DNA of 64,000 bases from Bacteroides fragilis (GTDB lineage: Bacteria; Bacteroidota; Bacteroidia; Bacteroidales; DTGW01): the NCBI GenBank assembly GCA_945889005.1, contig CAMDBI010000019.1, positions 1 through 64,000 of the forward strand. The letters run 5' to 3'. Both the position numbers and the translations under genes were made by a program. Positions 7,477-64,000 of this stretch are shown in pieces. How positions within the stretch are numbered: the first letter of the stretch is position 1; every line of letters begins with the position of its first letter. The notes beneath the pieces were generated by a model that saw only the letters and a list, made by a program, of their open reading frames with translations, was not told the origin of the DNA and made no database searches.

Positions 7477-7764
7477 ATGGAAACCAAATCACAAAATATC
7501 ATCATTCAAAATGCCCATACCAACAATCTGAAAAACATTTCGTTGGAAATACCCAAGCACAAAGTAATTGCATTTACAGGTGTTTCGGGCTCGGGTAAAT
7601 CATCGTTGCTTTTCGATACTATTTATACAGAGGCACAACGACAGCTTATCGAAACATTTTCAACCTTTGCACGAAAGCGTCTTCCCAAACTATCGCGTCC
7701 CGATGTAGACGATATATTAAACCTTTCTACTTCAATGGTGATTGACCAAAAGAAAATGGGCAAA
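7477..7764 (+). pseudogene. UvrA-like excinuclease ABC subunit, N-terminal fragment only
   Basis: The first 96 residues are a clear UvrA paralog: '[22 protein letters not shown]', the Walker A stretch [15 protein letters not shown] and 'FARKRLPKLSRPDVDDI', then 'SMVIDQKKMG'. From about 7765 the frame runs into the antisense of a different gene and ends at 7917 with non-homologous sequence. A full member would be 750 residues or longer. The homology type resembles the short UvrA-like proteins linked to drug resistance rather than the housekeeping copy. The gene is truncated by a rearrangement and is not functional. Confidence 0.8.
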
Positions 7765-7768
7765 ATCG

Positions 7769-7984
7769 AGAGGGAACTATTTGCCACGATACACCATACT
7801 GATCTTTACACCAACTACATTGACCTTCACTTCCTCCATTTGCTGAAAGTCGATTCCACAATCTATCTACTTCTTCCTGATTGTCACATAAAACAAAGAG
7901 CGAAATTGCTTCATTGAATTTAAATTGAGGACCTCCGTTCAATGCCATAAAGTATACGCCATCTAATTCAAATTCTAGTATAGA
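7769..7984 (-). pseudogene. PhnB / 3-demethylubiquinone-methyltransferase-like VOC protein fragment
   Basis: The minus strand encodes 'EFELDGVYFMALNGGPQFKFNEAISL', then 'EEVDRLWNRLSANGG' and 'WCKDQYGVSWQIVPS', the core of the PhnB-like VOC family. The usual N-terminal 'FWFDGQAEEAANFY'-type segment is absent: the upstream in-frame residues do not resemble it. The C-terminal 40-50 residues are also missing because the sequence joins the UvrA remnant at about 7765. This is a remnant trimmed at both ends. Confidence 0.75.
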
Positions 7985-8803: not shown

Positions 8804-11800
8804 ATGAGAAAATTATTTGAAAAATACAAATTAAAAAAGATAATTTTATTACTTATAGGTTTGTTAATATTTACAAACAATTATCTATATTGTGTAAATT
8901 ATTTATGGTCAAATAGAATTTATTCTACAGGTTCTGATATAACAAATTTCTCTTTACATAGAACAATAATTGATAAAGATGATAACATTTATGCTTGTGG
9001 AATTTTTCAAGGTTCAATATCAATAGATGGAGTTAATTATAAAACAACTACTGGATCAACTGGTGTTGATGTTTTTGTTGTTAAATTAGACAAGAATGGT
9101 CAGTTTATTTGGTTAAAAACATTTGGATCAAGTACTGGTACTGAAACGGCTTCTGGTATGACTATTTCATCTGATGGTAAATGTCTGTATATATCACTTT
9201 TATATAATGTTGCAATTACAAACTTGTCTGGTTTTCCTGCTGGATTATCTGCAGGAACTGGAATTGATGTAGCTTTATTAAAAATTAATACATCAACAGG
9301 GGATGTTTATAACGCTTTTAAGGTAATATCTGGCATAGGTAACCAATTTGTTACAGATTTCAAATATGATAACAATAAATTTATTTTATCAGGATATTAT
9401 AATAATCAATTAACTTTTAATACTTCTTCTTCAACTTTTTCTACAGGTGCTACTAGTCCAACAACATATTCAGCAATGTATGTTGCTATATTAGATACAA
9501 ATGGTGTTTGGGAAAATTCAAAATCATATTATGCAAGTTCTGCAACTTCAAATCAAGTTAGGGGTATTGATGTTTCGTCTTCAAATATATTTATCTCTGG
9601 GACTTATAAAGGTTCTTTAACTTTAGGTTCTTTAACTCCTACATTATCAAATAGTAATTCTTTTAACGCATCATTTTTATTGTGTTTAGATAAAAACCTT
9701 AATGAACAATGGTATAGGAAATCATCTGGTAGTACATTTGGTGATGAGATAATGTATTCAGTAGGAAGTGATTATGCTACAAACAATGTAATAATTGGAG
9801 GTTTTTTTTCTAGTGATACATTAAAAATTCAAACTGATGCAAACAATATTAAAAAAATAGTAAATGTAAATAAGAGTACTCGAGATTTGTTTTTTGCAAA
9901 ATATTCCGAATTAGGAACTATGTCATGGTCTTATAATACAGGAAGTAACTATAATGATTATATGTTGCGTGGTTCTTATAAAGACAATACATTTATTTCT
10001 TGCGGTACATTTAATAAAAATATAGTTATTAATGAGGATACCTTAACTTCAAAAAAATGGTCTGATAATTCAAAATATTCTTCAGATGTTTTTGGTTTAG
10101 TAATTCAATCAAACCAAAACCTAGTCTATTTTTTCAATTTAGGAGGAGACTCTTTAGATAATGGTTATTCTGCCACAATTGACAATAAAGGTAAGTATAT
10201 ATTTTCTGGTTTATATACTAATTCTTACGGGGGTAAACCAATTGTAATAGGATCTAATTCATTTCCTGTATCTACACCAGGTTATATAGATTTGATAATT
10301 ACAAAAGTTGACAACAAATCCATAAAAAGCACAAAATCTCATCCAAAATGTCCCGGAGCTTATAATGGTTCGCTATCGATTCAGAAAGAAGGTACTGCAA
10401 ATATAGTAAGTTACAAGGTTACCAAAACCGATACCATACCCAATAAAGTATGGAATTTTTCGCAGGATAGTACTTTAAACAACTTGGGTGCAGGTATCTA
10501 TAAAATTAGAATAACAGACGATGTAAGTGAGTATACCGAAAAAATTGATACCCTTACCGATCAACCCGCTCTGTCATTAACTTACGCTACTCCTACAGCA
10601 CCTACTTGCCTTGCTGCTAGCGATGGTGCCATTGCATATACCAGCCATACCCCTTCCGATAGGGCTATAGCCAGTTACGAATGGTCAACCAGCAATGGCT
10701 CGGGTATTGTGCCGGGTGTTCAAAGCCAAATTGCATTGGCTGCTGGTATCTATAGCCTCACGGCTACCGATGTCAATGGTTGTTCGGCTTCGTTGAGCAA
10801 TTTGGTGGTGCCTGCCGGAGCGTCTATAGTTATTAACAAAGATGCTTCGACCAACGAAACCGATTTAGGTACCAACGATGGAACTTTAGATGTGTCCGTT
10901 ACTGGCATAGCAGCTCCAACTTATACTTGGACTAAAGCTGCCGATGGCTCGGCAGTTGTTGGAACAACTAATTTAACCGGCTTGTCTAGTGGACAGTACA
11001 ACCTTTCGGTATCGAAAAGTGCTTGTAGCAAAGATACTTCGTTTACCGTGAATAACAGCAATACCACAGTGCTTGTTGTCAGCGAAAAGCATTATAAAAT
11101 AAGCTGTATCGACGGTGCCGACGGTGCAATTAAAGTTAAACCAAGCGGAGCCGGAGGCTCTTATACTTATAGTTGGACAAAAGATGGCAACCCAATTGCT
11201 TCTACAAGCGATTCGATTGGCAATTTGTCTGTTGGTACTTATGTATGTACAGTAAATGGTTCAGCCTCTATCAGAGTTGTTTTGAGCAACCCCGCAGATA
11301 TAGTTTTAACACCCCAAACATCAAACTCTACTTGTTTCGATTCCGACAATGGTTCGGCTGCGGTGAGCATAGCCAATGCCACAGCCCCATATACTTATAA
11401 CTGGAGCAATGGCAGTACTACGCCTGTAATTTCGTCGCTCGCGCCAGGTAGCTACAATGTTACTGTGACCGATGCCAAGGGATGTACAAAACCATATACC
11501 GGTATAAGCATTACCGAGCCACCTCAAATTACGGCTACAGTTACTCCAACACCTATTACTTGCAATGGCATGAAAAACGGAATGGTCGAAGTAACCGGTG
11601 TTACAAACAACCAGGGAGCGTTTACCTATAGCTGGAACAGCGGACAAACAACTGCCAAAATACAATATCTGCCAAAAGGCGATTATACCGTAACTATAAC
11701 CGATTCGAAGGGTTGTAACACTCAGTATACACGTACTGTTGTTGAGCCAGCCAAGTCGATTAGTATTTCGAGTACCGATCCCGACAATAAAATATGTACT

Positions 11801-14101
11801 GGAGAATCGGTAACCCTTACCGCCTCGGGAACCAACAATTTTTATTGGAATACCGGCGAAACTTCCACAGACAAAACAACTGGTACCGCCGGTATTTATA
11901 CCGTAACCGGAACCGATGCCAATGGATGTGTGAGCTCCGAAACCGATACCGTTGTTGTAAACAGTTTGCCAATTGTTACGGCTTCTATTGCCGAAATATC
12001 GGGTTCGACAGCCAACGATGGAAATATGTGTGTTGGCGACAGCTTAATATTATCAGGAGTTGGTGCATCAACTTATACCTGGGATCATGGTGTAACTAAT
12101 GGTGTCAAATTCAAATCAAATACTACACAAACTTATATTGTAACAGGTACCGATGCCAATGGTTGCCAAAATACAGCCAGCAAACTGGTAACGGTATATA
12201 CCCTGCCAACACTAGGAATAGGTATTTCTGAATCGTCGGTTACACCCGACGATGGTACTGTATGTAAAGGCAGTTCGGTAACATTAACAGGAAGTGGTGC
12301 ATCTATTTATAGTTGGTCGGGAGGTATTGGCAATGGAGTTTCATTTGCACCTATAGCTACAAGTACATATACCCTTACCGCAACCGATGGCAATGGTTGT
12401 ATCAATACCAAAGACCAGCCAATTACCGTCAATGCATTGCCAACAATAAACATTGTTAGCAGCGATGCCGATAAAAAAATATGCGCCAATCAATCAGTAA
12501 CACTTACTGCTTCTGGAGCGAACACTTATTCGTGGAACAGTGGCGAAACCAATGCTGAAATTACTAAAAATACTACAGCTCGTTATATTGTAACAGGTAC
12601 CGACGCCAATGGATGTGTTGGGACTGCCAACGATAGCATTACCGTAAACCCGTTGCCAATTGTTGTAATTAGTACAAACGATGCCGATAATGCCATATGT
12701 TTGGGACAATCGGTAACTCTTACTGCATCGGGAGCTTCAACATTTGCTTGGATCAGTGGCGAAACAGAAGCTTTGATCAGTAAAAATGCTTCGGGAACTT
12801 ATACTGTAACTGGTACCGATGTTAATGGTTGTCAGAATACAGCCAGTAAAATAATTACATTGCTTTATTCCGATGTAATTTCTTCTGCAGAAGTCATAAA
12901 TTCTAATTGTAATGGCAAGTCGGCAGGTTCGATAAATATTACAACATCGGGAGGTACAGCTCCATACAGATACGAATGGAGCGATGGTTTGGTTTCTGAA
13001 GACAGAACCTCATTACAAGCCGGTCAATACGAGCTTTCGGTATTCGATGTCAATAATTGTAAGTATACAGATACTTTTAAAATAACAGAACCTGCTGCTA
13101 TTGTAATTGATGAAGATCAAGCACAACACCAGAATATAACTTGTTACAACAACACCGATGGACGTTTTGCTTTAAAAGTTGTTGGAGGTTCGGGCAAATA
13201 TAAGTTTACACTCGATAGTGCCAAAACCTGGGGGTCAGATTCGATATATAGCATGCTCAAAGACGGATACTATAAACCTTGGGTAAGCGATTTTAATAAT
13301 CAAAATTGTGTTGTTAAATACTCGGGTTATATTTCAATAACTGCGCCTGAACCACTAACAGTTCAAGTTGCCGACAAGCAAAATGCCTTGTGTTTTGGAG
13401 TGGCAAATGCTTATATTAAACTTAAGGCCCAAGGAGGTAATGGTATTTACCAGTATTCGATAAACAATGGAACTAGTTTTCAGTCGGCATCTTCATTCTT
13501 CAATTTGTCGAAAGGTACGTTAAGTATTTTGGCAAAAGATTTGAATAATTGTATGTCTGAATCAATTGCCGATTCGATTACAGAACCTAGTAAACTAGTC
13601 AAAACCTTGGTATCGGCAACTAACCCGACAAAGAAATTGGTTAGCGACGGAGCCATAAGTGTTAAAGCTGAAGGAGGAACACCTCCTTATACTTACGTAC
13701 TCAATTCGGTAGCTACAAATTCGACAGGTCAATTTGTAATGTTGGGTGCCGGAATTCAAAAAATTACGCTTTTAGATGCCAATCAATGCCAGGATACAAT
13801 ATCAAAATTATTGCAAGAACCGATAGATACCCTTACTCTAATTGCAAATGCAGAACGTATTGTAACTCGTTTGTATCCAAACCCAAGCGAAGGAAAGTTT
13901 TATGTCGATTTGTCAATTCCTCAAAAGCAAAATATTAGTATTGAGATATTTAATATTTTAGGGAAAAAAGAATTCTCATTAGAACTGAATCAAATGCAAT
14001 CGATAGAGAAATACTTAATCGATCTAAGAGGAAAGCCAACAGGTGTCTATATTTTGAAGGTAAATGGTATGGTTTATAAAAAACGATTAGTTATACAATA
14101 A
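8804..14101 (+). CDS. Giant SprB-repeat surface protein with type IX secretion C-terminal sorting domain
   Basis: The product is a 1765-residue cell-surface protein. An N-terminal hydrophobic segment (about residues 12-30) is the export signal. Residues about 40-500 resemble a beta-propeller of SBBP-like repeats ('DDNIYACGIFQGSISIDG', 'FVVKLDKNGQFIWLKTFG'). The middle contains SprB-type repeats ('TCFDSDNGSAAVSIANATAPYTYNWSNG', 'CNGMKNGMVEV') and four or five Ig/PKD-like repeats of about 63 residues with 'ICxxxSVTLTASG' and 'YTVTGTDANGC'. The last 80 residues ('LYPNPSEGKFYVDL ... GVYILKVNG ... KRLVIQ') are a type A T9SS sorting domain, removed after outer-membrane passage. An adhesin or gliding-type role is inferred. 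Bases before about 10330 are far more AT-rich than those after. Confidence 0.88.
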   Translation: MRKLFEKYKLKKIILLLIGLLIFTNNYLYCVNYLWSNRIYSTGSDITNFSLHRTIIDKDDNIYACGIFQGSISIDGVNYKTTTGSTGVDVFVVKLDKNGQFIWLKTFGSSTGTETASGMTISSDGKCLYISLLYNVAITNLSGFPAGLSAGTGIDVALLKINTSTGDVYNAFKVISGIGNQFVTDFKYDNNKFILSGYYNNQLTFNTSSSTFSTGATSPTTYSAMYVAILDTNGVWENSKSYYASSATSNQVRGIDVSSSNIFISGTYKGSLTLGSLTPTLSNSNSFNASFLLCLDKNLNEQWYRKSSGSTFGDEIMYSVGSDYATNNVIIGGFFSSDTLKIQTDANNIKKIVNVNKSTRDLFFAKYSELGTMSWSYNTGSNYNDYMLRGSYKDNTFISCGTFNKNIVINEDTLTSKKWSDNSKYSSDVFGLVIQSNQNLVYFFNLGGDSLDNGYSATIDNKGKYIFSGLYTNSYGGKPIVIGSNSFPVSTPGYIDLIITKVDNKSIKSTKSHPKCPGAYNGSLSIQKEGTANIVSYKVTKTDTIPNKVWNFSQDSTLNNLGAGIYKIRITDDVSEYTEKIDTLTDQPALSLTYATPTAPTCLAASDGAIAYTSHTPSDRAIASYEWSTSNGSGIVPGVQSQIALAAGIYSLTATDVNGCSASLSNLVVPAGASIVINKDASTNETDLGTNDGTLDVSVTGIAAPTYTWTKAADGSAVVGTTNLTGLSSGQYNLSVSKSACSKDTSFTVNNSNTTVLVVSEKHYKISCIDGADGAIKVKPSGAGGSYTYSWTKDGNPIASTSDSIGNLSVGTYVCTVNGSASIRVVLSNPADIVLTPQTSNSTCFDSDNGSAAVSIANATAPYTYNWSNGSTTPVISSLAPGSYNVTVTDAKGCTKPYTGISITEPPQITATVTPTPITCNGMKNGMVEVTGVTNNQGAFTYSWNSGQTTAKIQYLPKGDYTVTITDSKGCNTQYTRTVVEPAKSISISSTDPDNKICTGESVTLTASGTNNFYWNTGETSTDKTTGTAGIYTVTGTDANGCVSSETDTVVVNSLPIVTASIAEISGSTANDGNMCVGDSLILSGVGASTYTWDHGVTNGVKFKSNTTQTYIVTGTDANGCQNTASKLVTVYTLPTLGIGISESSVTPDDGTVCKGSSVTLTGSGASIYSWSGGIGNGVSFAPIATSTYTLTATDGNGCINTKDQPITVNALPTINIVSSDADKKICANQSVTLTASGANTYSWNSGETNAEITKNTTARYIVTGTDANGCVGTANDSITVNPLPIVVISTNDADNAICLGQSVTLTASGASTFAWISGETEALISKNASGTYTVTGTDVNGCQNTASKIITLLYSDVISSAEVINSNCNGKSAGSINITTSGGTAPYRYEWSDGLVSEDRTSLQAGQYELSVFDVNNCKYTDTFKITEPAAIVIDEDQAQHQNITCYNNTDGRFALKVVGGSGKYKFTLDSAKTWGSDSIYSMLKDGYYKPWVSDFNNQNCVVKYSGYISITAPEPLTVQVADKQNALCFGVANAYIKLKAQGGNGIYQYSINNGTSFQSASSFFNLSKGTLSILAKDLNNCMSESIADSITEPSKLVKTLVSATNPTKKLVSDGAISVKAEGGTPPYTYVLNSVATNSTGQFVMLGAGIQKITLLDANQCQDTISKLLQEPIDTLTLIANAERIVTRLYPNPSEGKFYVDLSIPQKQNISIEIFNILGKKEFSLELNQMQSIEKYLIDLRGKPTGVYILKVNGMVYKKRLVIQ

Positions 14102-19379: not shown

Positions 19380-20822
19380 ATGAACCTGATCAATTTTTTC
19401 AACGGAATTACTGTATTTGAATTAATATACATAATAACTGTTGCGTTTGCAATTATTTTAGTTGTTCAGCAAAAAGGCGATCCGTTAAAAACAATTTCCT
19501 GGATTTTAGTTATTATTCTAATTCCAATTGCAGGTATTGGTCTGTATTTCTTTTTTGGTCAAAATTATCGTCGTCAGAAAATATTTTCGCGAAAAGAAGT
19601 CAGCGATATAGAGCATTTGAGAGGCTTGAATACCTACATCTCTAAAAAACTACTGCGCAAATCGACTATAAAAAGTAAACAACGAATGATGACTTTGTTG
19701 GAAAACAACAGCAAGTCGTTACTGACACAAAACAACAATGTTGAAATTTATTTCAGTGGGAAAGAGGCTTTTGATCAAATATTGAGCGATTTTGAAAAAG
19801 CACGTCATCATATTCATGTTGAATACTACATTATTGAAGACGATAAAATTGGAAAAAGGGTGCAAGAAATGCTTATAAAAAAAGCATTGCAAGGAGTAAT
19901 AGTTAGGGTAATATACGACGATGTAGGAAGTTGGAGTTTGCCTAAAAAATATACAAATTCTTTACATCACGCAGGAGTTGAAATACATCCTTTTTTACCT
20001 GTAAAATTTCCACTACTGACCAATAAAATAAACTATCGAAATCACAGGAAAATAATTGTAATAGACGGTACTATAGGCTATGTAGGAGGCATGAATATAG
20101 CAGATCGTTATCTGGAAGGCAATGCAGAAGTTGGTCAATGGCGCGATGCTCAACTGCGTATAGAAGGAGATTCGGCACATTCGCTTCAAGCCATATTTTT
20201 AACAGACTGGTATTTTGCAAGTAAAAAAATTATTAATAGTGAAATATATTTCCCGCCTCACAACATACACCAAGAGCATGTGATTCAAATAACCGCCAGT
20301 GGACCCGATAGCGATTGGGCTAGTATAATGCAATCGTATTTTGTGGCAATTACTACTGCCGAAAAGTATATTTATATAGCTTCGCCATATTTTATACCCA
20401 ACGAAAGTATACTTACCGCACTCAAAACAGCAGCACTTAGTGGTGTTGAAGTTCGTATTATGTTACCATATAAATCCGATTCGCACATTGTGTTTAGAAG
20501 CACTTTGTCGTTTGTAAGCGAGTTGCTCGAAGCTGGCATTCATGTGCATTTTTATAACAATGGCTTTAATCATTCGAAATTGATTATAGTAGATGGGGTT
20601 ATAGCATCGGTAGGTACTGCTAATATGGACATCAGGAGTTTCGATCAGAATTTTGAAGTAAACGCGCTCATATACGACGAAGAAATTACCAAAGTGCTTG
20701 AAGATAATTTCAAAGAAGACATGAAGAGTTCCGTTGAGTTTACCCTCAGCGAATGGGAAAACCGCCCATGGATTGATAACCAAAAAGAAATATTGGCTAG
20801 GTTGCTAAGTCCGTTGTTTTAA
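19380..20822 (+). CDS. cls: Cardiolipin synthase (phospholipase D superfamily)
   Basis: The enzyme condenses two phosphatidylglycerols to cardiolipin at the inner membrane. Two N-terminal membrane helices (about 9-29 and 38-59) precede two HKD motifs, 'NHRKIIVIDGTIGYVGGMN' near residue 221 and 'NHSKLIIVDGVIASVGTANMD' near 399, each with the HxK(x)4D signature. The length of 480 residues is standard for ClsA-type enzymes. It is probably co-transcribed with the preceding stress protein (one-base gap). Its stop overlaps that of the convergent ispG by three to four bases. Confidence 0.92.
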   Translation: MNLINFFNGITVFELIYIITVAFAIILVVQQKGDPLKTISWILVIILIPIAGIGLYFFFGQNYRRQKIFSRKEVSDIEHLRGLNTYISKKLLRKSTIKSKQRMMTLLENNSKSLLTQNNNVEIYFSGKEAFDQILSDFEKARHHIHVEYYIIEDDKIGKRVQEMLIKKALQGVIVRVIYDDVGSWSLPKKYTNSLHHAGVEIHPFLPVKFPLLTNKINYRNHRKIIVIDGTIGYVGGMNIADRYLEGNAEVGQWRDAQLRIEGDSAHSLQAIFLTDWYFASKKIINSEIYFPPHNIHQEHVIQITASGPDSDWASIMQSYFVAITTAEKYIYIASPYFIPNESILTALKTAALSGVEVRIMLPYKSDSHIVFRSTLSFVSELLEAGIHVHFYNNGFNHSKLIIVDGVIASVGTANMDIRSFDQNFEVNALIYDEEITKVLEDNFKEDMKSSVEFTLSEWENRPWIDNQKEILARLLSPLF

Positions 20823-22777
20823 ATAGGCTCAATCCAATCGCCATTAGATTTGATAAGAGCAATCAACTCATCTACAGCATTATTGGCATCAACACCACGT
20901 TTTATTACCTCTTTTCCTTTATAAAGAGTTATTTTACCGGGTCCGGCACCTACGTAGCCATAGTCGGCATCGGCCATTTCGCCAGGACCATTAACGATGC
21001 AGCCCATTATCCCTATTTTAAGATGTTTGAGGTGCATGGTTCGCTCTTTAATGCGGGCTGTTGTAGTTTGCAAATCGAACAATGTTCGACCACACGATGG
21101 ACACGATATATATTCGGTTTTAGTACTGCGAATACGACTGGCCTGAAGTATGCCATACGAAGCAGATACTATATTTTGAGAAGTTACAGTGCCGGCATTG
21201 CGAATCCACAAGCCATCACCAAATCCATCGATAAATAAAGGTCCAATATCAGCAGCACTTTTTATTTGAAAAGTGGCAGGATCATCTTCGGTATAATTGC
21301 GGTTAATTACCACAGGAGTTGTTATGCCATTTTCTATAAATTTTAAAAATACAGATCGTTGCTCGGCAAAGCCATTGCTGTTGAAAGTTTCGAGTATCAA
21401 AACTACTTTAAAGCTCGTTTTCAATGCTTCTAAAAACAAAGGCTGAATTTCTTCGGCCGAAGCAATTACAAAGTTGAGAGTGTCGCTTTTTTCACCATAA
21501 AACAAATACTCAGCAACCGTATAAAGAGGATAAACATTGGCTTTTTCTTTGTTAAATTTGAACCAGTCCTTTAGATTTTGTATAAATTTTTTGTCCGAAA
21601 GAAGTTCGTCGAAGTAACCAAGTTCGCTAACAAAATAATATTCGGGTTCAATGGCATATTTGTTAAAATCTTTTTCGTCGTTAAAATCGGTAATTACAAT
21701 AGGCAGATTTTTACCGCCAATATTTTTTACCGAATTTGATTCCCTTTTTTGATATTCAAATGGGTTTTTTAAATTGTTTCGAATGGGTTCAATAGGAGAC
21801 GATTCTTTTCGAGAAGAAAAGTAATGTACAATTTCCTTAGCAACAGGTATTTCTAATTCTGGCTCTTCGGTAAGTGACACACGTACAGTGTCTCCAATAC
21901 CATCGGCCAAAAGTGCGCCGATACCTGCTGATGATTTTATGCGACCATCTTCGCCATCGCCTGCTTCGGTAACACCCAAATGCAATGGGTAGTTCATGTT
22001 TTCCGATAGCATTTTTGCAGCTAAAATGCGGTACGCCTGCACCATAACCCTTGTATTGCTCGATTTTAGAGAAATTACCAATTGGTTAAACTGCTCAGCC
22101 TCGCAAATACGGATAAATTCCATAGCAGCTTCTGCCATTCCCTCTGGAGTATCGCCATAGCGGCTCATAGTACGGTCGCTTAGTGAGCCATGATTGACCC
22201 CAATGCGTATGGCAGTATTGTATTGTTTACAAATAGCGAGAAGTGGATTAATGCGATCGCTAATTCGTTCTATTTCAGCACTATATTGCTCATTGGTGTA
22301 CTCAATTGTTTCAAACTTTTTGGTATCGATATAGTTGCCGGGGTTGATACGTACTTTTTCTACTATTTGAGCAGCAATTTCGGCTGCTTTGGGGTTGTAG
22401 TGAATATCGGCTATAAGCGGCACAAAATACCCTTGACGGTTTAAACTTGATTTAATATTTTCTAAATTTTCGGCTTCGCGAACACCCGGAGCTGTAATAC
22501 GTACATAGTCGGCGCCGGCCTCAATACATCGAATAGTCTGCTCTACAGTAGCTCGGGTATCCATGGTGTTGGTGCTGGTCATGGTTTGAATACGAATGGG
22601 ATTGTCGCCTCCCATGGGTACATGTCCAATATGAACTTCCCGCGTTTTGAATCGAGAAAATTCAGTAAGGCTATTGCAATAGGTGAACTGTGAGCCGAGA
22701 ACCGTGGACCGTGAATCGTGAACTGCACTTTCAATTTCTGGTTTTCGAATTTCATTTGTCATTTTCTCATTCGACAT
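20819..22777 (-). CDS. ispG: 4-hydroxy-3-methylbut-2-en-1-yl diphosphate synthase, three-domain type
   Basis: This [4Fe-4S] enzyme of the MEP isoprenoid pathway reduces MEcPP to HMBPP. 'HVPMGGDNPIRIQTMTSTNTMDT' opens the TIM barrel; about 260 residues of inserted domain, typical of Bacteroidetes, Chlamydiae and plants, precede the iron-sulfur domain with 'SCPSCGRTLFDLQT' and 'GIMGCIVNGPGEM'. I chose the ATG at 22777; a GTG at 22783 is also possible. The first 35 residues are odd: residues about 19-32 are translated from a six-unit 7-bp repeat array, and no start codon exists between the array and the conserved region. The cysS stop lies 8 bases before this start. Confidence 0.93.
   Translation of the reverse strand: MSNEKMTNEIRKPEIESAVHDSRSTVLGSQFTYCNSLTEFSRFKTREVHIGHVPMGGDNPIRIQTMTSTNTMDTRATVEQTIRCIEAGADYVRITAPGVREAENLENIKSSLNRQGYFVPLIADIHYNPKAAEIAAQIVEKVRINPGNYIDTKKFETIEYTNEQYSAEIERISDRINPLLAICKQYNTAIRIGVNHGSLSDRTMSRYGDTPEGMAEAAMEFIRICEAEQFNQLVISLKSSNTRVMVQAYRILAAKMLSENMNYPLHLGVTEAGDGEDGRIKSSAGIGALLADGIGDTVRVSLTEEPELEIPVAKEIVHYFSSRKESSPIEPIRNNLKNPFEYQKRESNSVKNIGGKNLPIVITDFNDEKDFNKYAIEPEYYFVSELGYFDELLSDKKFIQNLKDWFKFNKEKANVYPLYTVAEYLFYGEKSDTLNFVIASAEEIQPLFLEALKTSFKVVLILETFNSNGFAEQRSVFLKFIENGITTPVVINRNYTEDDPATFQIKSAADIGPLFIDGFGDGLWIRNAGTVTSQNIVSASYGILQASRIRSTKTEYISCPSCGRTLFDLQTTTARIKERTMHLKHLKIGIMGCIVNGPGEMADADYGYVGAGPGKITLYKGKEVIKRGVDANNAVDELIALIKSNGDWIEPI
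22683..22724. repeat. GTGRRYY heptamer array A, within the 5' end of ispG
   Basis: Six consecutive 7-base units read on the plus strand: GTGAACT, GTGAGCC, GAGAACC, GTGGACC, GTGAATC, GTGAACT. The total of 42 bases keeps the ispG reading frame. Confidence 0.85.
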
Positions 22778-22784
22778 TTGCACA

Positions 22785-30099: not shown

Positions 30100-30375
30100 C
30101 TATTTTAAATTTTTTATCAAACCCTTTTCGATAAGATCGTTTATAAACTCTTCGCTATCGGTTTGGCATTGTTCGAAACTAACATCAAACTCTTCGGTAA
30201 GTTTATTTATTAGGTTTTCGAGGGTCGTGGCTTCGGCAAGCAACTCCCATATACGGCTGCCAATTGGGTTGAGACCATAGTATTCGCCTCGTTCGAGGTT
30301 CATCATTACTACCTCATTGTCGAGTAGGTTAAATGTAAGTTCGTTGTTTCTTTGTAAAATAGTATGCAAATTCAT
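30100..30375 (-). CDS. PqqD-family peptide-binding chaperone-like protein
   Basis: The 91-residue protein matches the PqqD winged-helix fold: 'DNEVVMMNLERGEYYGLNPIGSRIWELLAEATTLENLINKLTEEFDVSFEQCQTDSEEFINDLIEKGLI'. In known RiPP systems PqqD-like RREs bind a leader peptide and deliver it to modifying enzymes. No precursor gene or radical SAM partner is visible beside it. It is the last gene of a three-gene minus-strand unit with an HprK-like kinase and a TlpA-like protein (12-base gap). Confidence 0.85.
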   Translation of the reverse strand: MNLHTILQRNNELTFNLLDNEVVMMNLERGEYYGLNPIGSRIWELLAEATTLENLINKLTEEFDVSFEQCQTDSEEFINDLIEKGLIKNLK

Positions 30376-30387
30376 AACAATACAATA

Positions 30388-31272
30388 TTATAAAAATTCA
30401 TTTACTTTTTTTTGAAATATTTCGACCGAAAATGTATTTAAAGGCCTGTTAACCAAAAATATTTCTGCGTTTTTTGCAATAATTGTCAATTTATCAAAAA
30501 TCAAAGCTTGATTGTTGATCCCTCTTGTAAAATACGATCGATATATAATATCGTTGAGAAATTTTATTTTTTCGAAGCCTTTTATGGCATTAATCTCTAT
30601 GTGGTCTATCGAAGCCTTTTTTATTATAATAATTTTGGAGAGGTCTGCTTTTTTTTCACAAAACAATGAACTTATTTCCCATGCTTTTTTTTCGCATTTA
30701 GAGGCAATTTCGGACATATCTTGTTTGACTAGGTCTAATTGTTCGGCACTGTCGCTCCAAAGCTTTAAAAAGGGCATAGATGGCAAAATAAATGTTTTTT
30801 GGCCTTTTTCATTTAATGTGAGTGCAATATCGTCGGCTAGCAAGTTAAAACCTTTTTTGACATATGAAGCAGCAAGTGTCGATTTTCCGGAACCCGAATC
30901 GCCCGCAAATAAAACAGCATTCTGATTCACAATAACGGCACTGGCGTGTAATGGAATTTCGCCTTTGAGATGAATAAGTGCCGAAAAAACCGGACCAATA
31001 AGAAATTGCGTAAATTCAAGCTTGTCGATTTCTCCGTGAATTGAATATTTGATAAAATGATCTGATACCATGAAACGAGCTCGATCGCGATATCGAATTA
31101 GAATTTCTTTGCCTGTCGACTCAAAAAATGTTGATTTATAAACAGGATTCTCTATATGATCGGGAACATCTGCTTCTTTAATAAATACTTTTGCTTTCTG
31201 AGTAGTAATTGGAACATGAAACAATGTTAAATCTGTTGCTACATCAAATCCATATATTTTATAAACAGGCAT
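30388..31272 (-). CDS. HprK-like serine kinase-fold ATPase
   Basis: The 294-residue protein has a P-loop GDSGSGKST at 124-132 within 'PLHASAVIVNQNAVLFAGDSGSGKSTLAASYVKKGFNLLADDIALTL', the arrangement of HPr kinase/phosphorylase C-terminal domains, with His109 and the Asp147-Asp148 pair in the expected order. Stand-alone HprK-like kinases occur beside PqqD and asparagine-synthase-like proteins in lasso and other RiPP clusters. No HPr substrate is evident. The start ATG is directly followed upstream by the TlpA stop (adjacent bases). Confidence 0.8.
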   Translation of the reverse strand: MPVYKIYGFDVATDLTLFHVPITTQKAKVFIKEADVPDHIENPVYKSTFFESTGKEILIRYRDRARFMVSDHFIKYSIHGEIDKLEFTQFLIGPVFSALIHLKGEIPLHASAVIVNQNAVLFAGDSGSGKSTLAASYVKKGFNLLADDIALTLNEKGQKTFILPSMPFLKLWSDSAEQLDLVKQDMSEIASKCEKKAWEISSLFCEKKADLSKIIIIKKASIDHIEINAIKGFEKIKFLNDIIYRSYFTRGINNQALIFDKLTIIAKNAEIFLVNRPLNTFSVEIFQKKVNEFL

Positions 31273-55540: not shown

Positions 55541-57494
55541 TTATCTCATCAAAAACTTCATAGCCATATAGCTACGTAGCAAAATAATGGCATCGATATG
55601 TTGAATTTTTCCCCCTTTATTGGCTTTTTCGATTTTCTCAAACACCTGTGGTTTAATCCATTGCGGATAATTCTTTAATACTGTTACTATTTCCAAAAGT
55701 TGATCGCCCGAAAGTCTCGATACTAAATCTGCCGCTTGTAAACCTCTTCGTTTATTGAAAATAACTTCATGAGGCATCAAATCGGCAAAACATTTCTTAA
55801 TAAAAATTCGGTCTGATTTGTGTTTTTCATAAAACGATGTGGGGATGCTCACCATAAACTTAAGCATACGAATATCATTGGTGGGGTCGCGGTACTCAAG
55901 ACCTGCCATGGCTGCCTTTTCGTAAGGTAGACAAAGAAATTTGTCGGAACCGGGACGAATAATGCTGTATTGTATGCGGTGAAGCTCATCGGCAACTCCT
56001 TTGCTAAAAGCTTTATTGGAAAGATCTAATTGTAAAAGTCCCAATTTCTCAATCATGGTCAATGGTACATCAGATTGGCAAATCAATCGTTCGCCTTGCG
56101 AAAGTGGTTTGAACAAACGTCGGTATACTTTATTGGGAGTTAGTTTTATCGATCGTCGAAATATATTAAATAAAAAACTTTGTTGCTTTTTTGTTGGTTT
56201 TTCGAATTGTCCGGGCAATGGCCACGACACAGTAGCATTGCCGTGCTGACCATTGAGCATGGTGCTAATACCCATTTGACGTGCATGCTCGTCTATATCG
56301 TATATCCAAAACTGGTTACCTGCCGCATGCAGAGGCTCGTCGTGTGTGGCAAGGGCACGTTCAACAGCATCGAGCGGAGTAATATGAGCTGTTTGGCAAA
56401 ATAGGGTATCAATATTGCCATTAAAATTGGCAGTTTGCTTTGCAAAATGGGTTTCGTCGCCAAATCGACGATGGTTGTCAAATGCTTCTTGTTTATGTAA
56501 GGGTATATGCGTAAATGTTTGTAATTTATCGCCTTTCTCTTTGAGCATATTGGCAGCCAGTACACATACCGAACCCGAATCGAGTCCACCACTCAGTTTT
56601 GCTCCTACCTTTCCATAGCTGCGAAGGCGACAACGAACGGCTTCTATATAAATCTCCATAAACCTGTCGAAATATTCCTGATCTTTATCTAACAGAAGTT
56701 CAGGCGTATGTTCGAGGTAAAAATAGCGGTGTTTGTGCACAAAATTTTGCCCCAATTCAATCCAGTGCGAAGGGGCTAGCCTAAAAATATCTTTGCGGGC
56801 TGTTCGCTGCCCTTCGGGAGGCCACGAACTCATAATGAGTGCCACGTATTGCTCGTCGATTGTTTTAGGTATTTCGTCCAATGCCAAAAGTCCCTTTACA
56901 CAACTCGAGAAAACAAAAATATCTCGATCGAAATAGTAATATAGCCCTGTAATACCATGATGGTCGCGAACCAAAAACAGCTCTTTTTCGGCTTTGTTCC
57001 ACACTACAAAACTCCAATCGCCAATAAGGTGGTCGACACATGCTTTGCCATATTGTTGGTAGGCTGCAAATGCAAGGTCAGAGTCGGTTAATAGTGAGCC
57101 CTGGACCGTGAACCGTGGATCGTGAACCGTGGATCGTGGACTGTGGGCCGTGGACTGTGGGCCGTGGACTGTGGGCCGTAGACATTGAACCGTAGACTGT
57201 AAGCCGTGAATCGTAAGCCTCTGAATTCTGAATTTTTTCTATTAGTTCGTCGCGGTTGTCGATGCGTCCGGCAAAGAAGAAAATGATGTTGCCACTTTGG
57301 TCAATTAGTGGAAAGCGTTCGTGAACCGATTCGGGGGTGTTGTAACACTGCAAAAGTCCAAAACCAGCTGCGCCTTCATGCCATGTATATTGACCATGCG
57401 GCCCCCAATATGCCATAGGCGATCGCATAGTTTCGAGTTTGGCAGGGTCGAGTGGCTTACCCGATATATTGATATAACCGTAAATTGCAGACAA
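55541..57494 (-). pseudogene. Lasso-cyclase-like asparagine synthase, split between two frames by a 7-bp repeat array
   Basis: Two frames encode one enzyme. The N-terminal half (to about 57221) reads 'SAIYGYINISGKPLDP', 'MAYWGPHGQYTWHEGAAGFGLLQCYNTPESVHERFPL', 'FAGRIDNRDELIEKI'; the C-terminal half (from about 57094) reads 'LLTDSDLAFAAYQQYGKACVDHLIGDWSFVVWNK', 'KLSGGLDSGSVCVLAA' (PP-loop ATP site) and runs to 55541. It resembles lasso-peptide cyclase/asparagine-synthase-related proteins (TPES-H motif; Cys2 nucleophile absent, so no glutaminase). Both frames stay open through the array. The only start candidates are TTG at 57494 (by homology) or 57527. In its present state the frames do not join, unless this is an assembly slip. 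Confidence 0.8.
57095..57220. repeat. GTGRRYY heptamer array B, inside the asparagine-synthase-like gene
   Basis: Eighteen 7-base units run from 57095, the bulk being GTGAACC, GTGGATC, GTGGACT, GTGGGCC and GTGAATC, then degrade (GTAGACA, GTAAGCC, TCTGAAT). The array separates the two halves of the gene. Confidence 0.9.
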
Positions 57495-57556
57495 ATGAGT
57501 AAAAAATTTGTAAAGGTAATAGTTCAATAAAATTTTGGCTAAAGCCTATTCTAATG

Positions 57557-57623
57557 AGCATTTCATTGCCGTCGGTTTATACTTCGACTATGCTCAGTAA
57601 CCAAAACGACGGCAATGAAATGC

Positions 57624-57624
<1 letters not shown>
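57557..57624. repeat. 18-bp inverted repeat next to array C
   Basis: AGCATTTCATTGCCGTCG (57557-57574) pairs perfectly with CGACGGCAATGAAATGCT (57607-57624). The loop contains the ACTTCGACTATGCTCAGT word. The right arm ends where the heptamer array begins. A terminator role for the synthase-like gene's upstream neighbour is unlikely because no T-run follows. Confidence 0.75.
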
Positions 57625-57763
<139 letters not shown>

Positions 57764-57765
57764 TT

Positions 57766-58980
57766 CTACACAGCCCCAGTCATTGCAAAGAGTGGTTGGA
57801 ATTCAAAGCTTTTGTACTGTGGTCGATAGCGCTCGGTGTTGTAATTTTTGGTAATGTCGACAAATTTCTTTTCGGTCGAAATAATGTCGATGGGAGCATT
57901 GTCGTAACATCCATTTTTGAGTATGACCAATCGACCATGTATACCCTTAATTATAAGATCAAGCGCCATATTGCCAAAAGCCATAGGTACAATACTATCA
58001 ATGGCATCGGGATCGCCTCCACGAACCATGTATCCGAGCTTTTGGCTAATTATGTTTATGGTTTTACCGTCGTTGTAATGTGCCGACAAATTTTTTATCT
58101 TATTGGCAACTATTTCGCCCATACCTTGACGACCAGGCAACTCGATATTTTCGTCTAGCTCTTCGGTAGTATGTGGTATAAAATTGCTCATCCCTTCCAT
58201 TATAGCACCTTCAGAAACAAGCAAGATCGAATATTTGCTTGGATTGTTATTTCGATCTTCGACCATTATTTCAGACAACTTCTCGATATTGAACTTATGT
58301 TCTGGTATTACGCAACGGTTTGCAGCACCGGCCAGAGTAGGAAGCATGGCTGTGAAACCACTATAACGACCAAAAACCTCTACAATCAATATTCGTTCGT
58401 GCGAACCAGCCGATATTCGCAGATTATTGATCATTCCTATGGTACGTGTTATACAGGTACTAAATCCGATGCAATAGTCGGTTCCGGGTACATCGTTTTC
58501 CATAGTTTTGGGTATGGCAATCACCTTCACACCTTCCTTGTGCATTCGCACAGCATAACTCAAGGTATCGTCGCCACCGATAGGAATCAGAAAATCGACC
58601 CCAAGATAATCGAGGTTTTTGATAACCTCAACGGTAAGATCGTTTATTTTTTTGCTGTATTTATGTTTCAGGTGACTGGGAACCATATCGACAGGCACAT
58701 GACTGGGACGAGTACGTGAAGTATGCAAAAATGTACCTCCAGTTCGTCCTGCTTTTTTAACAATTTCGGAAGTCAGTACCATATAGTTGTCACTATTGTC
58801 ATAAGTTTTGTCGCGAACCATCTCCATAATACCGGTCCAACCGCGACGTAAACCAATAACCTGAAAGCCTTCCTGAAGTGCACGAAGTGTAATAGCACGT
58901 ATTGCAGGGTTTAAACCGGGCACATCGCCACCTCCGGTAAGTATTGCAATGGTTCCTTTTTTTATTTGTATATTCGCCAT
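57766..58980 (-). CDS. pfkA: 6-phosphofructokinase, probably pyrophosphate-dependent type
   Basis: The enzyme phosphorylates fructose 6-phosphate in glycolysis. 'ILTGGGDVPGLNPAIRAI' binds the phosphoryl donor, and 'LIPIGGDDTLSYA' and 'IPKTMENDVPGTDYCIGFST' form the active site. Two positions point to pyrophosphate as donor: Asp instead of Gly in GGD(D), and Lys in PKT instead of Gly (PGT) of ATP enzymes. 'EVFGRYSGFTAM' follows. The length of 404 residues is somewhat longer than the 320-residue ATP type. The 3' end abuts heptamer array C. Donor use is inferred from signature residues only. Confidence 0.9.
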   Translation of the reverse strand: MANIQIKKGTIAILTGGGDVPGLNPAIRAITLRALQEGFQVIGLRRGWTGIMEMVRDKTYDNSDNYMVLTSEIVKKAGRTGGTFLHTSRTRPSHVPVDMVPSHLKHKYSKKINDLTVEVIKNLDYLGVDFLIPIGGDDTLSYAVRMHKEGVKVIAIPKTMENDVPGTDYCIGFSTCITRTIGMINNLRISAGSHERILIVEVFGRYSGFTAMLPTLAGAANRCVIPEHKFNIEKLSEIMVEDRNNNPSKYSILLVSEGAIMEGMSNFIPHTTEELDENIELPGRQGMGEIVANKIKNLSAHYNDGKTINIISQKLGYMVRGGDPDAIDSIVPMAFGNMALDLIIKGIHGRLVILKNGCYDNAPIDIISTEKKFVDITKNYNTERYRPQYKSFEFQPLFAMTGAV

Positions 58981-62152: not shown

Positions 62153-62280
62153 GTGAACCGTGAACCGTGAACCGTGAACGGTGAACGGATTACGATTCAC
62201 GGTCAACGGTCCACTAATTACGGTCCACGGTTCACGATTCACAGTTCACGATACACGATACACGGTTCACGGTTCACGAT
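62153..62280. repeat. GTGRRYY heptamer array D, inverted, between pit and kinase genes
   Basis: About 18 units fill the 130-base gap between two convergent genes. The first four read GTGAACC/GTGAACG on the plus strand; from about 62188 the units read as the complement (ATTCACG, GTCAACG, GTCCACG, GTTCACG), so the array is head-to-head and can fold as a long hairpin. It ends at the kinase stop codon. Confidence 0.85.
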
Positions 62281-64000
62281 TTATTTAAGGTATTTATTCA
62301 ATATTGCATACAACTCGTTAGAGTTTATGGGTTTCGAAATATAAGCATTGCTACCTACCGACAGGCATTTTTCGCGCTCGTCCGACATGGCAAAAGCTGT
62401 TTGTGCAATAATGGGCAATTGAGGTTTAATTTTTTTGATTTGTATAGTTGCTTCAAAACCATCCATTTCGGGCATTTTGCAATCCATAAGCACAAGCGAA
62501 ATATCCTTATTGATTCGTACTGCATCAACGGCATCTTTTCCTGTTCTAACCCAAAGTAGCTTTACGCCCGACTTTTTAAACAATTCTTTGAAAAACAGAA
62601 AATTGGTATCCTCATCTTCTGCAATAAGAATGGTTTTTCCGGCTAACTCGACCACTTCATCGACAATATTTTCGAGTTTTTTGTCAGTCTCCTTCAATTC
62701 TATACGATTGTATGGAATGGTAAAAAAGAAAGTACTTCCTTTTTCAATTTCAGATTCGACCCACATAGCGCCTCCCAATAATTTTGTAAGGTTATTGGAA
62801 ATAGCCAAACCCAAACCGGTACCTTTATGATTATAAGTTCCCGATTCTAATACCTGTCCAAAACGTTCGAATATTATTTCTTGCTTTTCTTTAGGAATAC
62901 CAATGCCGGTATCTTTAACAAAAAATTTCAACATACTGCTCTGATTGTCTAATATATATCCAAATTCGATAAAGCCGTCAAATGTAAATTTAAAAGCGTT
63001 TCCAATTAAATTTGAAATAATTTGGCGTAAACGAAAAGGGTCTGTTTGTATGATTGAATTTTTTTCGTCTAATCCTAATGATAAACGTAACTCAAAAGTA
63101 TGTTTACCTTCTTTTTCTTGAATTGCATTAAATGAACTACAAATTTCGTTCAAAATTGCATTGATGTTACACTCAACCAAACGTACTTTTATTTGTCCGG
63201 CTTCTATTTTAGAAATATCGATAATGTCGTCGATCAAATTAAGAAGTGAATTGCCACAAGTGGTGATATGTTCCAAAAATTCTTCGCGCTCAGACTCAGT
63301 CAATTCCGAATTTTTCAAGAGATTTGAAAAACCGATAATACCATTCATCGGCGTACGTATTTCGTGGCTCATATTTGCCAAAAAAGCTGTTTTTAGACGA
63401 TCAGATTCCTCGGCCTTTTCCTTAGCTTCTTTCAATCGGCGTTCTGAAATCATTTTTTCGGTAATATCCATCGATATTCCAACCAATCCCGATATATGAC
63501 CTTCAAAATCACGAATTGGTATTTTTGTTGTCGAAAACCAACGAACTGTTCCATCGGCTTTAATATAACTTTCAACTTTTTCAATTTGAGGCATTCCCGA
63601 CCTAATCACTCGAACATCGTCCTCATACGATAAATGCGCTTCAAGTGTATTTGATATATCTACGTCGGTCTTGCCATAAACTTGATCGGGACTTGTAAGT
63701 CGTAGTAAATTGGCCTGAACTTTATTTATTTTTGTAAACCTACAATTGTGATCCTTCAAATATATTGAATAGGGTATAAAGTCCATAATAACCTGCAAAT
63801 GCTCGCGTTCTTCGGCAAGTATTTGCATTATTTTCTTTCGGTTGGTAATATCGTGCGAAATACCAACTATTCCAATAATTTCGCCTTTGGCATTTCTTAT
63901 AGGACTTTTAGTAGATAAATACCATGCTTCGCTTGCTCCTTTAGTACTAACTCTTTCCTCTTTATTAATTATGGGAATACCTGTCTTTATAATATTTTGT
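62281..64000 (-). CDS. Multi-PAS hybrid histidine kinase (5' end outside window)
   Basis: The frame runs from 64000, beyond the window, to 62281. It contains the end of one PAS/PAC unit ('IGIVGISHDITNRKKI'), a second PAS-PAC (about 'VIMDFIPYSIYLKDHNCRFTKINKVQ ... GLVGISMDITEKMISE'), HisKA with 'FLANMSHEIRTPMNGIIGFSNLL', ATPase ('KDTGIGIPKEK', 'GTGLGLAISN') and a C-terminal receiver with Asp in 'LVLMDCKMPEMDG' and Lys in 'YISKPINS'. It is soluble as far as visible. The end of the gene abuts heptamer array D; a convergent pit gene lies beyond it. Confidence 0.93.
   Translation of the reverse strand, partial: QNIIKTGIPIINKEERVSTKGASEAWYLSTKSPIRNAKGEIIGIVGISHDITNRKKIMQILAEEREHLQVIMDFIPYSIYLKDHNCRFTKINKVQANLLRLTSPDQVYGKTDVDISNTLEAHLSYEDDVRVIRSGMPQIEKVESYIKADGTVRWFSTTKIPIRDFEGHISGLVGISMDITEKMISERRLKEAKEKAEESDRLKTAFLANMSHEIRTPMNGIIGFSNLLKNSELTESEREEFLEHITTCGNSLLNLIDDIIDISKIEAGQIKVRLVECNINAILNEICSSFNAIQEKEGKHTFELRLSLGLDEKNSIIQTDPFRLRQIISNLIGNAFKFTFDGFIEFGYILDNQSSMLKFFVKDTGIGIPKEKQEIIFERFGQVLESGTYNHKGTGLGLAISNNLTKLLGGAMWVESEIEKGSTFFFTIPYNRIELKETDKKLENIVDEVVELAGKTILIAEDEDTNFLFFKELFKKSGVKLLWVRTGKDAVDAVRINKDISLVLMDCKMPEMDGFEATIQIKKIKPQLPIIAQTAFAMSDEREKCLSVGSNAYISKPINSNELYAILNKYLK

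Follow-up and report, generated by a model that had tools for sequence, protein, structure and literature searches.

A gene of the lasso-cyclase type in the window (the whole stretch of 64,000 nucleotides that was analysed) is broken into two reading frames by an array of 7-base repeats. Its orthologs lack this array and lie in surroundings typical of lasso peptide systems, and the valyl-tRNA synthetase gene of the same genome carries an array of the same kind in frame. The reading that we favor, with reasonable but not high confidence, is that this lasso cyclase gene has probably lost its function recently, within a lasso system that is itself decaying. We infer that no product is made and that reversal of the lesion, if it occurs, is too rare to be useful.

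A synthetase gene split at a 7-base array

The gene is on the minus strand. Two frames, the N-terminal one running from 57527 to 57078 and the C-terminal one open to 55541, meet at an array of 18 units of 7 bases, and the two open reading frames were found just as the original prediction had described them, split exactly at the array. The parts of the gene are as follows.

57492..57494, minus strand: conserved cyclase start, TTG (ATG or GTG in the orthologs), placed by alignment with the orthologs
57215..57494, minus strand: N-terminal part, lasso-cyclase-like (asparagine-synthase-like), without Cys2 (NF033535 positions 1-93, E 2e-17; ortholog alignment)
57089..57214, minus strand: array inside the gene, made of 18 degenerate units of 7 bases (ACGRTYC or, more loosely, ACNRYYC type), with the frame break; absent from all orthologs
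57136..57180 (edges approximate), minus strand: the array's single long tract of perfect tandem repeats, with a 14-base unit, ACGGCCCACAGTCC, in about 3.2 copies (45 bp at lag 14)
57078..57080, minus strand: stop codon TGA of the N-terminal frame, just beyond the array, in the context CTC TGA C (ORF reading)
55541..57094, minus strand: C-terminal part in the +1 frame, with the remaining N-terminal domain and the synthetase domain (PF13537, PF00733)

The two frames are offset by one base (codon starts at 2 mod 3 versus 1 mod 3). Removing a net 1 mod 3 bases joins them, and the predicted arithmetic, by which the loss of one 7-mer or the gain of two restores a single frame, is therefore correct. 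The C-terminal frame stays open between about 57240 and 55541. Its earliest ATG, GTG or TTG is the GTG at 57004, downstream of the array, which confirms that this half has no start codon upstream of it. The start of the gene (...CAT TTG TCT GCA ATT TAC GGT, MSAIYG...) matches the ortholog starts MSAIFG, MSVIYG and MGALYG, with no in-frame ATG nearby; the listed N-terminal ORF begins at a TTG further upstream (57527, compared with 57494 for the conserved TTG).

Could the ribosome read past the break? A +1 frameshift at CTC-TGA-C (57083-57077) would enter the C-terminal frame exactly, the UGA of the N-terminal frame being followed by a C, and internal initiation at GTG 57004 would open a 487-codon frame containing the entire synthetase domain. 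We consider such a translational bypass highly improbable. The leucine codon here, CTC, differs from the slippery CTT that is used in prfB-type frameshifting, and no Shine-Dalgarno-like stimulator was seen at the right distance. GTG 57004 sits within a conserved core segment, and the orthologs have neither a frameshift site nor an internal start.

Outside the array, the gene contains no further stop or frameshift, and its SGGLDS motif is intact. Three of 59 otherwise invariant positions are broken, compared with 0-4 in the intact orthologs and 12 in a distant one (L048). Since the protein shows no visible decay outside the array, the break is either recent or reversible.

Identity of the cyclase and its lasso context

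For both halves, the best NCBIfam model was NF033535 (lasso peptide cyclase), with scores of 207.6 bits for the C-terminal part, taken from GTG 57004, and 63 bits for the N-terminal part, both under the curated cut-off of 525 bits. NF033535 was the best model for the orthologs too; seven intact ones scored 270-357 bits, likewise under the cut-off, which marks the entire group as a divergent branch. We aligned nine ortholog loci, eight of them full-length (about 600-645 aa, 31-37% identity) and one with an internal TGA. The latter (L041, on contig C68 of genome G331) is the closest ortholog, with 40% identity, and its internal TGA means that damage to the cyclase gene occurs elsewhere too. A search of genome-contig and viral-contig collections with the C-terminal half yielded no relative. 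The orthologs have a short variable linker of a few residues between RIDNRDELIEKI and a TDSDL motif, and it is this site that the array occupies. Judged by the alignment, the array is an insertion peculiar to this lineage, placed in a variable loop.

With a serine at position 2 and the domains PF13537 and PF00733, the protein is a two-domain asparagine-synthase-like protein that lacks the glutaminase Cys2, and it shares this lack and the SGGLDS ATP motif with lasso peptide C proteins. We rejected its identification as the housekeeping AsnB, because it has no Cys2 and the genome contains other candidates: two large PF00733 proteins begin with MCGI (the glutaminase cysteine) and are of the classical glutamine-hydrolysing type, and a third has the length of AsnB. 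As far as the sequences tell, the genome thus has no lasso-type C gene besides the split one, and no other asparagine-synthase-like protein without the glutaminase cysteine.

The surroundings of the orthologs agree with this assignment. A short ORF whose leader is of the lasso type (W..P.[IVL]..L, then a Thr further on) adjoins seven of the nine ortholog genes, an example being MRNKEVKEMQYICLLKWIRPEIVELIILNTESGTSGGDDGVGGDVLS in genome G390. These precursor-like ORFs lie mostly between the cyclase and an SprB-repeat protein, and several of these proteins bear a Por secretion tail. The loci concerned are L182, L184, L185, L186, L187, L189 and L190, most of which are flanked by an SprB-repeat or T9SS-tailed protein. 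The B2 protease (PF13471) was found in 10 of 10 ortholog genomes but in only 4 of 39 other relatives (Fisher p = 1.2e-7, not corrected for phylogeny), and two of these four contain weaker cyclase homologs. Precursors beside the orthologs and B2 in all ortholog genomes make the identity as a lasso cyclase, for which macrolactam formation is predicted, well supported; the lasso-cyclase-type synthetase that had been proposed from the DNA letters thus held up.

In the genome under study, B2 is encoded on another contig (C28:19466-19732), and two further candidate partners of the cyclase are found in the window.

30115..30315, minus strand: PqqD/B1 (RiPP recognition element) gene, a possible lasso partner (PF05402, E 4e-22)
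30388..31272, minus strand: HPr-kinase-like gene, of the kind known from phosphorylating lasso clusters (PF07475, 32 bits, just below the cut-off of 33.3)

The B2, PqqD and kinase ORFs of this genome are intact. In the relatives, B2 has PqqD beside it and, in several genomes, also HPr-kinase-like and sulfotransferase genes; the same type of HPr-kinase-like gene adjoins PqqD and B2 in G390, G002 and G167. HPr-kinase-like, sulfotransferase and PqqD genes are a known accessory set of lasso clusters (PMC8498205, PMC10368454). They form with B2, in varied combinations, a second locus (L211, L212, L213, L215, L217, L218; 30115-31272 in the window), which most genomes keep apart from the cyclase. G167 (L218) has a whole cluster that includes another cyclase and a precursor candidate. 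The group therefore resembles known lasso C systems in having W..P-type precursors beside the orthologs and B2, PqqD and HPr-kinase-like genes in the genome. It differs from known lasso clusters in that A-C and K-B1-B2 occupy separate loci in most genomes, and from the typical lasso C protein in its lower scores (at most 357 versus 525 bits); the present gene is, in addition, split and without a precursor neighbor. We found no description in the open-access literature of such a split-locus lasso arrangement in this order.

Around the cyclase gene itself, we found neither a W..P-type precursor ORF nor an SprB-repeat neighbor, and precursor scans of the source genome gave only ORFs that look like chance matches. 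A protein with SprB repeats and a Por tail is encoded at 8804-14101, 41 kb from the cyclase, and a truncated UvrA-like ORF (146 aa, 7477-7917) is probably a gene remnant. A profile made of eight precursors gave no match in the source genome at E <= 10. As positive controls, three of the genomes from which the precursors came gave 1e-16 to 1e-17, their own peptides being included in the query. The same search returned two distant candidates in G150 and none in G002, indicating that this test can miss a precursor. The precursor of the source genome may be too divergent for detection.

The repeat family and a second array within a gene

The ACGRTYC-type repeat is dispersed in the genome, with 268 pattern matches when one mismatch is allowed and 183 exact ones. 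No match was found in four other genomes of the bacterial family, and only 2 of 36 other genomes of the order had any (1-3 matches each); by this comparison, the repeat family is lineage-specific. The arrays of the window contain 45 pattern matches, compared with 0.00 expected from shuffled sequences. In 2.03 Mb of sampled stretches, some of them picked because they contain arrays, we counted 43 array clusters, of which 41 were intergenic and two intragenic. Several other arrays that had seemed intragenic (L080, lipA-like/lipB-like; L084, L086, L089, L090, L091 and L130) proved to lie between separate genes. A short array in the window (22685-22726), at the 5' end of an ispG-like gene (20819-22783), either lengthens the listed ORF in frame at its N terminus or immediately precedes the true start of the gene.

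Nine clusters in the sampled stretches are inverted pairs, all with the minus-strand array on the left and the plus-strand array on the right; the opposite order was never seen. They include 62155-62282 in the window, L080 6254-6416, L089 9690-9850, L093 8463-8659 and L112 1436-1601. Such pairs would yield long hairpins. Genome-wide, lineage-specific and mostly intergenic 7-base arrays are also known from Xanthomonas, Nostoc and Beggiatoaceae (PMC4692102, PMC4679880); the present ones differ in their unit (ACGGTYC type, degenerate), in often forming inverted pairs and in being twice intragenic. Our search of the open-access literature found no report of ACGRTYC-type arrays.

The in-gene array also faces an inverted partner, in the region between pfkA and the cyclase.

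57558..57619, no strand assigned: REP-like inverted repeat (GCATTTCATTGCCGTCG ... CGACGGCAATGAAATGC) between pfkA and the cyclase, with its stem visible in the RNA fold
57620..57766, plus strand: intergenic array of the ACGRTYC repeat family, in inverse orientation to the one inside the gene (repeat pattern)

The REP-like element consists of a perfect 17-bp inverted repeat with CTTCGACTATGCTCAGT in the loop, and has few copies in the sampled stretches. When 57080-57770 of the minus strand was folded as RNA, most of each array paired with the other, and the gene start came to lie in the loop (z = -11.6). According to this model, they could pair in the cell if they were within one mRNA.

The second intragenic array was found in the gene for valyl-tRNA synthetase (898 aa; L087 8166-10862, G000:C7:31168-33861 in the same genome). 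It comprises 11 units (77 bp, L087:10162-10238), is in frame, and adds some 20-25 residues to a loop that has 0-5 in relatives. This copy was the sole match to valyl-tRNA synthetase in the genome, and the enzyme is essential. A variable loop can therefore carry a heptamer array that is translated as a linker.

Possible slippage or assembly error, and a probable loss of function

The original prediction presented the gene as an ON/OFF contingency gene whose units change by slippage. Its observation that both frames are open through the array is true, yet it is no evidence for such a switch and was set aside as an argument: any 7-base unit cycles through the same seven codons in every frame, so that a stop-free array is open by construction and two open frames are no sign of selection. 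The 7-base slippage was not borne out. The in-gene array contains no identical adjacent units, its longest perfect period-7 tract, at 13 bp, falls short of two units, and the identity between its units is 0.63, compared with a median of 0.78 for 52 arrays. The lack of a perfect 7-base tract makes a 7-bp slip unlikely, and we rejected single 7-mer slippage as the main route.

A reversible phase variation would then have to proceed by slipped-strand mispairing mainly in 14-base steps, with the 45-bp perfect period-14 tract as a possible substrate and a minority of cells having the cyclase ON; the frame-restoring events would be the gain of one or the loss of two copies of the 14-bp unit. Repeat number does set the reading frame here, and the undecayed remainder of the gene would fit. 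There is also a precedent in neuO of E. coli K1, which encodes a heptanucleotide phase-variable O-acetyltransferase and is ON at multiples of three repeats (PMC13001214). In neuO, too, a 7-base tandem repeat within an enzyme gene sets the frame, but it is a single repeat (AAGACTC) in the 5' region with documented length variants, whereas the present units are degenerate, and the array is in an internal loop and is not known to vary. The array of the valyl-tRNA synthetase, where selection for a stable frame is strong, is just as degenerate (unit identity 0.57), both intragenic arrays being among the most degenerate of all. This degeneracy is suggestive, with two intragenic arrays to compare, of selection for frame stability, the opposite of a contingency design. 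Moreover, arrays of this type are mostly intergenic, and no precursor was found in the genome for the enzyme to act on. We therefore regard phase variation as possible though unlikely, and the more specific proposal of a 14-base (two-unit) slippage switch combined with a giant mRNA stem around the gene start as unlikely. The degenerate units, the in-frame array of the valyl-tRNA synthetase, the TTG start and the missing precursor speak against the contingency gene as originally claimed; the length of the array is known from one genome. A literature search limited to open-access papers found no report of a switched lasso cyclase. If the array varied in length, this would, to our knowledge, be the first switch on a lasso cyclase.

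An error in the sequence is another explanation, in which the true array would be in frame and the gene an ordinary cyclase with a repeat linker. Short-read assemblies err at repeat arrays, the present one is a draft of 62 contigs, and the valyl-tRNA synthetase shows that an in-frame linker is tolerated. However, the same assembly keeps the correct frame across the 77-bp array of that gene. In the cyclase array, the longest exact repeat is 45 bp and the units differ, so that ordinary reads and k-mers can resolve it. We find this explanation rather unlikely.

Inactivation of the cyclase, the reading that we prefer, is suggested by the TTG start, the missing neighbors and the undetected precursor. 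The gene would encode the C protein, an ATP-dependent macrolactam cyclase, of a lasso system scattered over the genome. A dispersed 7-base repeat would have settled in the N-terminal domain, in the loop that separates two conserved segments, and would then have expanded there. In such a permissive loop, an array of frame-keeping length would be a harmless linker, as in the valyl-tRNA synthetase. The present length shifts the frame, and translation would end just past the array, at the TGA (57080-57078), so that no synthetase domain would be made. Arguing against inactivation are the lack of visible decay in the protein outside the array, the intact B2, PqqD and kinase ORFs, and the chance that a precursor exists but has diverged too far to be recognized.

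The findings point to a divergent split-locus lasso system in this order, in which the precursors lie between the cyclase and SprB-repeat proteins, often type IX-tailed. They also illustrate how the dispersed 7-base repeat of one lineage, on entering coding genes, may have two outcomes, an in-frame linker in the valyl-tRNA synthetase and a frame-broken accessory enzyme in the case of the cyclase.
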